DNA from: Paraescarpia echinospica
Lineage: Eukaryota > Annelida > Polychaeta > Sabellida > Siboglinidae
Direction: 5' to 3'
Length of the DNA stretch: 64,000 nt
NCBI GenBank assembly: GCA_020002185.1
Contig: CM034543.1
Span: 54,791,535-54,855,534, forward strand
Of this stretch, positions 1 to 61,291 are shown piece by piece; position 1 is the stretch's first letter; each line of letters begins with the position of its first letter. Position numbers and translations under genes: made by a program. The notes beneath the pieces were generated by a model that worked only from the letters and a program-made list of their open reading frames with translations, did not search any database and was not told where the DNA came from.

Positions 1-876
1 GAAAGACTGCCTAAGAAAGTACATGGCAGAGACACAGAAAGACTGCCTAAGAAAGTACATGGCAGAGACACAGAAAGACTGCCTAAGAAAGTACATGGCA
101 GAGACACAGAAAGACTGCCTAAGAAAGTACATGGCAGAGACACAGAAAGACTGCCTAAGAAAGTACATGGCAGAGACACAGAAAGACTGCCTAAGAAAGT
201 ACATGGCAGAGACACAGAAAGACTGCCTAAGAAAGTACATGGCAGAGACACAGAAAGACTGCCTAAGAAAGTACATGGCAGAGACACAGAAAGACTGCCT
301 AAGAAAGTACATGGCAGAGACACAGAAAGACTGCCTAAGAAAGTACATGGCGGAGACATAGAAAGACTGCCTAAGAAAGTACATGGCGGAGACACAGAAA
401 GACTGCCTAAGAAAGTACATGGCAGAGACACAGAAAGACTGCCTAAGAAAGTACATGGCAGAGACACAGAAAGACTGCCTAAGAAAGTACATGGCAGAGA
501 CACAGAAAGACTGCCTAAGAAAGTACATGGCAGAGACACAGAAAGACTGCCTAAGAAAGTACATGGCAGAGTCATAGAAAGACTGCCTAAGAAAGTACAT
601 GGCAGAGACAGAGAAAGACTGCCTAAGAAAGTACATGGCGGAGACACAGAAAGACTGCCTAAGAAAGTACATGGCAGAGACAGAGAAAGACTGCCTAAGA
701 AAGTACATGGCAGAGACACAGAAAGACTGCCTAAGAAAGTACATGGCAGAGACACAGAAAGACTGCCTAAGAAAGTACATGACAGAGACACAGAAAGACT
801 GCCTAAGAAAGTACATGGCAGAGTCATAGAAAGACTGCCTAAGAAAGTACATGGCAGATGCAGAGAAACTGTCAAA
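1..876 (+). repeat. 36-bp exon-like minisatellite with terminal donor
   Basis: About 24 copies of a 36-bp unit that reads MAETQKDCLRKY in one frame. Three in-frame stops (359-361, 575-577, 827-829) break the frame, so the whole array is not one exon. The last unit changes to MADAEKLSK and ends at 876 before GTAAAT, in the phase (2) that the exon at 1639 needs. It may therefore be the 3' end of a real exon whose tail seeded the array. The array runs off the left edge. Confidence 0.9.
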
Positions 877-1433
877 GTAAATATACTAGCCACAAAAAGA
901 AACTGCATGATGCAAATGTCATTATATTGTTAAAAAGTGGCTTAAACTGTCCATACAAAAGTGTTATGTAAGTGTAACATGTATGCCATCATTTTCACGT
1001 GACAATAACACGATAGCGTTAACATTTATGCCTAGTCTTTAGGATCAAAGTTTCAGCGGCAAACGTAAACGTCACAAGTTTAATAACGGGTGAGTCCTCC
1101 ATCTGCGTTGATCACTGCAGTGCATCGGCGCCTCATTAATAAAATGTGGTGATGGAACCTTTGTGGAATCGCAGGCTTGTTTTTCGTGTGTTTTTCCAGT
1201 TGGGTGTACCAACAGCTCTCCAAACGTCTGCCTTATGTAACCATGCATGCCTGTTACGTAAGACTCTACAGGGGCATTTTCTTTGTTTTCACACAATGGC
1301 GTTGCCTGACCTTGCACTATGTAACTTTCCAGTGAAAGTCATGTTATGGTATAGTCTACATGTCTCTGTTTCATGTTAATCGATATTGACCAAAATCAAT
1401 CCATTGCATTACATTTCGGTGCCTTTCTTCCTT
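877..1433. other. Intronic sequence, no feature seen
   Basis: AT-rich, non-repetitive. No exon, RNA gene or mobile element recognised. Confidence 0.5.
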
Positions 1434-1545
1434 TGCAGTTTCTCTTTATGGCTAGTACACATGGCAGATGCAGAGAAAGACTGCCTAAGAAAGTACATGG
1501 CAGATGTAGAGAAACTGTCAAAGTTGGCAGCCTGAGATGCAGTGA
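1434..1545 (+). pseudogene. Isolated exon-like copy of the 36-bp unit
   Basis: After a pyrimidine-rich CTTCCTTTGCAG and a second AG (GGCTAG) comes a diverged 1.5-unit copy: MADAEKDCLRKY, then MADVEKLSKLAA and a stop. It lacks a good donor (AA|GTTGGC at best). It could be the ancestral exon, an alternative exon or a relic; I cannot tell which. Confidence 0.5.
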
Positions 1546-1638
1546 AAACTAAGTTGCTCAAATCTAACTCATTTGTCTTTGTATTTGTTATGTTCTTTCT
1601 TATTAACACTGTAATAAATGGGAAATTGTATTGTTTAG

Positions 1639-61291
<59,653 letters not shown>

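Follow-up and report, generated by a model that had tools for sequence, protein, structure and literature searches.

Minisatellites straddling splice junctions recur within a lophotrochozoan DYNC2H1 gene and resemble lancelet mirages

How does a single gene come to carry tandem repeats at many of its exon-intron boundaries, and are such arrays seeded by a process acting at splice junctions or simply tolerated there? The question is raised by a window of 64,000 nucleotides (C13:54791535-54855534, in a genome of 1.08 Gb) that falls in DYNC2H1, the gene for cytoplasmic dynein 2 heavy chain 1. At eight junctions in the window an array is built from the exon edge plus the splice site. A first-pass annotation had recognised the gene and placed these arrays at donors 8444, 22059, and 59042 and acceptors 15815, 23305, 27162, 52236, and 54145; both the identity and the eight positions hold in a gene rebuilt from 23 homologues.

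In window coordinates, where negative values lie to the left, DYNC2H1 spans roughly -18.1 kb to +142.9 kb according to tblastn and a spliced-alignment script. For this model the window was extended by 90 kb to the left and 110 kb to the right, and the exon peptides served as the query for homologues. The model comprises 71 exons and 139 resolved junctions, 56 of them in the window, and the part at 1..61291 on the + strand, defined by tblastn with the 23 homologues plus spliced alignment, holds exons 11-38 of the 71 found. Five junctions were placed by hand, the exon 28/29 junction (43712/46281) is doubtful and a small exon may be absent from the model there, and an N gap at -2884..-1885 conceals exons between 9 and 10.

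The best DYNC2H1 matches, from a chiton, a nemertean, gastropods, bivalves, and an annelid, are 67–68% identical, whereas the best-alignment identity to the lancelet protein is 63%. A FastTree analysis of 3995 columns places the gene inside Lophotrochozoa with support of 1.0, its place among the phyla being without firm support. A lancelet host was considered and is ruled out by these identities and the tree. The sister in the tree is the flatworm Macrostomum (0.977), which may reflect long-branch attraction; without Macrostomum the gene groups beside the molluscs. A search of the genome for COX1 gave no match at E 0.001. Left of the window lies a GC-rich block at about -40 kb to -29 kb (L012-L013 and around) whose frames are reminiscent of a virus-like or Maverick-type element. 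Several reverse-transcriptase-like frames were also seen by eye in the flanks on either side of the window (L009-L028).

DYNC2H1 contains 86 arrays, which make up 48% of its intronic bases, and within the window arrays account for 59% of intronic bases. Twelve of the 139 junctions are straddled by an array that includes at least 6 exon bases. Raising the threshold to at least 10 exon bases leaves 11, as donor 90401 has 6. The straddled junctions comprise six donors (-417, 8444, 22059, 59042, 90401, and 110240) and six acceptors (15815, 23305, 27162, 52236, 54145, and 117247). Unit length ranges from 19 to 81 bp in the gene, and these arrays reach about 77 copies and 4.1 kb.

All junction arrays located below lie on the + strand. 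The leftmost donor-side array, with a 36-bp unit at -452..858, belongs to the donor of exon 10, which at -417 falls outside the window on the left, and only 3 of its 35 extra copies have GT. Position 876, previously proposed as a probable junction, has no coding match and is the far end of this array. Donor 8444 carries a 41-bp unit of 35 exon and 6 intron bases (8410..11557) with GT in 64 of 70 extra copies, and donor 22059 a 43-bp unit (22031..22952) with GT in 12 of 18. The array at donor 59042 (59005..60609) is compound, with a 24-bp unit and an exon-edge junction that recurs twice. The TRF array itself starts at 59057, and the exon-edge copies appear again at 59192-59239 and 60556-60603.

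On the acceptor side, 15815 has a 61-bp unit of 41 exon and 20 intron bases (14119..15855; AG in 26 of 27 extra copies). Acceptor 23305 has a 62-bp unit (23077..23330; 3 of 3) in the intron shared with the 22059 array, and 27162 has a 29-bp unit (25018..27181; 33 of 66). The 60-bp array at 52236 spans 50692..52267 (25 of 25) and the 19-bp array at 54145 spans 53868..54159 (11 of 13). The earlier unit lengths of 29, 36, 41, 60, 61, and 62 bp are as measured, while those of 20, 25, and 40 bp become 19, about 24, and 43 bp.

Less complete forms also occur. A 51-bp array at 5419..5783, ending at the exon 13 acceptor (5787), is a partial case whose unit resembles the acceptor region plus a few exon bases. 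Beyond the 12 straddled junctions, degenerate copies are found at acceptor 99761 and a two-copy duplication, with copies 148 bp apart, at donor 75837. The latter, like a two-copy duplication at a kinase donor elsewhere in the genome (L064), perhaps represents the first step of an array. Elsewhere in the window, a 56-bp array at 19410-21918, whose unit has an acceptor-like TATGACAG abutting GTT, stops 12 bases short of the exon that begins at 21931 and leaves that exon uncovered. An array with a 38-bp unit and about 248 copies (28169-37675) occupies most of intron 25, and a CT-rich tract of about 575 bases (55576-56150) lies in the intron that precedes the exon at 56334.

The units look unrelated to one another. 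Among 16 units (120 pairs) the best local score is 23, compared with 22 in 360 shuffled pairs, and the mean is 13.9 versus 12.5, which supports the proposal that the arrays were born independently. Accordingly, the related sequences over many introns that would be expected of introner-like elements are not seen in these 120 pairs. Periods of higher order, 123 and 249 bp, are seen in some arrays, and copies vary in sequence. The exon share of the unit runs from 0.09 to 0.85, consistent with an even spread (KS P 0.33), although this test has low power with only 15 units, 4 of them from other genes, and units stopping exactly at the splice site fall outside the straddling count by construction. 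Unit length is divisible by 3 in 4 of 15 cases. No TRF array lies wholly within any of the 71 exons, and the authentic, protein-making copy is the exon-proximal one.

The remaining copies form a large population of decoys. The transcript had been expected to carry well over 100 decoy splice sites, which is right and too low: GT or AG is kept in 251 of 334 extra junction copies. Losses are concentrated at -417 (32 of 35), 27162 (33 of 66), and 22059 (6 of 18), with few elsewhere. The low retention at -417 (3 of 35 with GT) and 27162 (33 of 66 with AG) hints that some decoys have been selected against. With scoring matrices built on the sites of the gene itself, 156 of the 334 decoys equal or exceed the authentic site, and none attains its score in the arrays at 15815, 23305, and 54145. 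In most of the arrays, therefore, strength alone cannot single out the correct site.

Copy number can be followed on two further contigs. C629 carries DYNC2H1 exons 11-32 at 99–100% identity and C2810 carries exons 21-25; most simply, these are other haplotypes, with C629 a probable haplotig. Eight of 21 introns (after exons 13, 14, 15, 18, 19, 24, 29, and 31) have the same length on C629 and C13. Five of these lack TRF arrays (13, 15, 18, 19, and 24), and the other three have short arrays, a point against the explanation preferred below. Introns with junction arrays differ mostly by near-whole units. Relative to C13, C629 is longer by 459 bp (9 x 51) in the 5787 intron and by 755 bp (18.4 x 41) in the 8444 intron. 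It is shorter by 613 bp at 15815 (10 x 61 being 610), by 783 bp at 27162 (27 x 29), and by 249 bp in the intron shared by 22059 and 23305, a length that fits either a single 249-bp higher-order unit or 4 x 62 + 1. Intron 25, with its 38-bp array, is 6533 bp longer on C629, the intron of the 56-bp array is 1166 bp shorter, and the remaining differences are -39, +23, -978, +161, +430, and -42 bp. Between C2810 and C13, three of four introns are equal and the one with the 27162 array differs by 26 bp. As introns with these arrays differ in length between contigs and five array-free ones match exactly, the arrays are both real and unstable.

Arrays of this kind already have a name. In lancelets, mirages are described in Adh3, the globins BflGb6 and BflGb9, PGBD5, and troponin C, where, in the available text of PMC3087553 and PMC3902484, a tandem unit lies across an exon-intron boundary on the donor or acceptor side and many copies have AG or GT. 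The same text cites Adh3 units of 10–72 bp and somatic instability for Adh3, gives BflGb6 haplotypes with 6 versus 3 units, and reports that mRNA splicing is not disturbed. The arrays described here agree in every feature compared except the host. The unit spans the boundary at 12 DYNC2H1 junctions and 4 junctions of other genes and measures tens of base pairs, donor and acceptor sides are both represented (6 + 6 in DYNC2H1), and AG or GT is kept in most copies. If C13 and C629 are taken as haplotypes, copy number also differs between haplotypes. Unlike in lancelets, the host is a lophotrochozoan (tree support 1.0), 12 junctions are affected in one gene, and the arrays reach about 77 copies and 4.1 kb. 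Cephalochordates are where the mirages of this literature were described, but this is not a defining feature. The first-pass annotation knew of no described case of this recurrence within one gene; the kind is in fact known, and what is new is the lineage, the recurrence in one gene, the scale, and the allele comparison. Neither mirages outside lancelets nor such recurrence within one gene was found reported in the open-licence literature searched.

Other systems are more distant, each judged from the available part of its source. Human genes in segmental duplications share minisatellites at exon-intron boundaries that alter gene structure (PMC2812944), but these are internal tandem repeats of recent paralogues with reported new introns, whereas DYNC2H1 is a conserved gene with intact exons. 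In UBC and VCX3A, tandem-repeat genes with dual-specific splice sites, splice signals are likewise repeated at the array period (PMC10809524), but in those genes the repeat itself is coding sequence and its splice sites are in use, while the DYNC2H1 copies sit in the intron. Earthworm metallothionein has intronic minisatellites, with exon edges unmentioned in the available text (PMC12783039).

Exon definition favours the choice that gives the shortest exon. The arrays are probably mirage-type minisatellites that arise by ordinary, GC-favoured tandem duplication and are tolerated, since the copy nearest the exon remains intact and is the one spliced. Duplications of a few tens of bases would arise across introns, more commonly in GC-rich DNA, and by chance a duplicated stretch would sometimes straddle a boundary. 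The copy adjoining the exon would then retain the coding sequence and the splice site, the remaining copies would end up in the intron, and the array could expand and contract like any minisatellite. As the outermost copy preserves the exon, such a duplication should be nearly neutral. The spliceosome would keep to the exon-proximal copy, most likely through exon definition, and since this copy gives the shortest exon, equally strong intronic decoys would be passed over. That selection tolerates arrays where one good copy remains had already been suggested, and is supported by the exon-proximal position of the protein-making copy, the lack of wholly intra-exonic arrays, and the finding that 4 of 15 unit lengths are multiples of 3.

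The alternative that survives best is a junction-specific process, such as transcription- or splicing-linked breaks, R-loops, or template switching, that seeds duplication at exon edges; seeding at junctions was one of two alternatives offered by the first-pass annotation. This alternative draws on an excess over a chance model in which the unit of each array may be seeded at any place in the collapsed gene that is not entirely exonic. Under uniform seeding, 12 straddling arrays are observed in the whole gene versus 4.8 expected (P 0.003), a 2.5-fold excess. For the window counted from -599, which takes in -417, the figures are 9 versus 2.6 (P 0.0007), but this comparison is post hoc as the window was chosen for the feature, and right of the window only 3 are observed versus 1.9 expected (P 0.29). 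A run that included super-periods (123 and 249) gave 11 versus 6.2 for the gene (P 0.04), and also 10 versus 5.7 (P 0.05); the super-periods inflated the expectation and base periods were used instead. Within 400 bp, 14 of 139 junctions have a copy that matches in 15 or more of 18 bases, as do 19 of 1500 control points, a comparison generous to the finding as the control points exclude arrays.

Base composition accounts for part of this excess. Array birth per 40-bp segment climbs with GC and, by a crude control, the GC at junctions gives a rate 1.66 times the intron mean. Allowing for this, the expectation becomes 4.8 x 1.66 = 8.0 against the 12 observed, an excess of about 1.5-fold with a Poisson P of about 0.11 by hand. 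The evenly spread position of the junction within the unit also speaks against dedicated seeding, within the low power of that test. The uncorrected P value was accordingly set aside as proof of junction seeding after the base-period rerun and the GC control.

Other genes of the genome point the same way as the raw counts. Exon loci came from HMM searches, with 135 matches for protein kinases and 76 for myosin heads, and 45 of them (15 myosin, 30 kinase) were hand-picked. Most of the 45 are matches to part of a domain and free of stops, and some belong to a single gene. The 65 junctions in these loci were set by eye and are approximate, with the L042 and L051 donors one base off a GT, and five loci (L034, L044, L047, L057, and L068) yielded no resolved junction. 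Straddling arrays occur at 4 of the 65, compared with the 12 of 139 in DYNC2H1: three acceptors, one in a myosin (L042, 20 bp) and two in kinases (L056, 45 bp; L060, 88 bp), and one donor in a kinase (L061, 34 bp). L053 is a partial case. The expectation is 1.3 (P 0.033), without GC adjustment. The tandem-repeat content of DYNC2H1 is itself unusual, at 55% of the window, compared with values of 11% and 13% for the two sets sampled first. Taken together, the non-significant excess past GC and the unadjusted count in other genes make a weak junction bias possible, while a dedicated seeding process is distinctly unlikely.

A second alternative is that tandem duplication of AGGT-type sequence in exons gave rise to the introns, with the arrays as remnants. 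Such a mechanism is described for potato RdRp, where an intron was gained through tandem duplication (available text of PMC4974935), and modelled in the available text of PMC3087553, and AG abutting GT is present in several units. The potato case shares tandem duplication around a splice signal, but in DYNC2H1 it is an existing junction that has been duplicated (compare PMC4974935, in its available text). The units hold intron as well as exon bases (intron 6 of 41 and 20 of 61), and no new intron bounded by two exonic copies is seen. Ten of the 11 introns with a straddling array have one at one end only, and the eleventh has two with unlike units. This origin is accordingly very improbable.

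Retention of the repeated splice sites for a function in regulating splicing or intron size is less credible still. The intactness of most decoys (251 of 334) would fit such a role, but the contigs differ in copy number by as many as about 27 units, the units are unrelated between junctions, and in two arrays the dinucleotide is gone from most copies or from half of them. Least credible of all is that collapsed or duplicated reads produced false arrays, as, although assemblies do err in arrays, C629 and in part C2810 carry the region, where intron lengths mostly differ by close to whole numbers of units, introns free of arrays are identical in length between contigs, and the copies vary in sequence and show the higher-order periods.

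Mirage-type minisatellites tolerated at junctions thus remain the preferred reading, and the finding suggests that mirages are not an oddity confined to lancelets. Length-variable arrays would be a simple route for intron growth. A bolder extrapolation, which is rather unlikely, is that about 1 in 12 to 1 in 16 junctions genome-wide bear mirages born with a real exon-edge bias beyond base composition, with introns lengthening in good part by splice-site copying and thousands of equal decoys resulting. DYNC2H1 also offers a natural test of splice-site choice, with about 250 intact decoys in one gene; as nearly half of the extra copies score as high as the real site, position rather than strength must separate true from false. 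This genome can test whether exon definition renders exon-edge duplications neutral.
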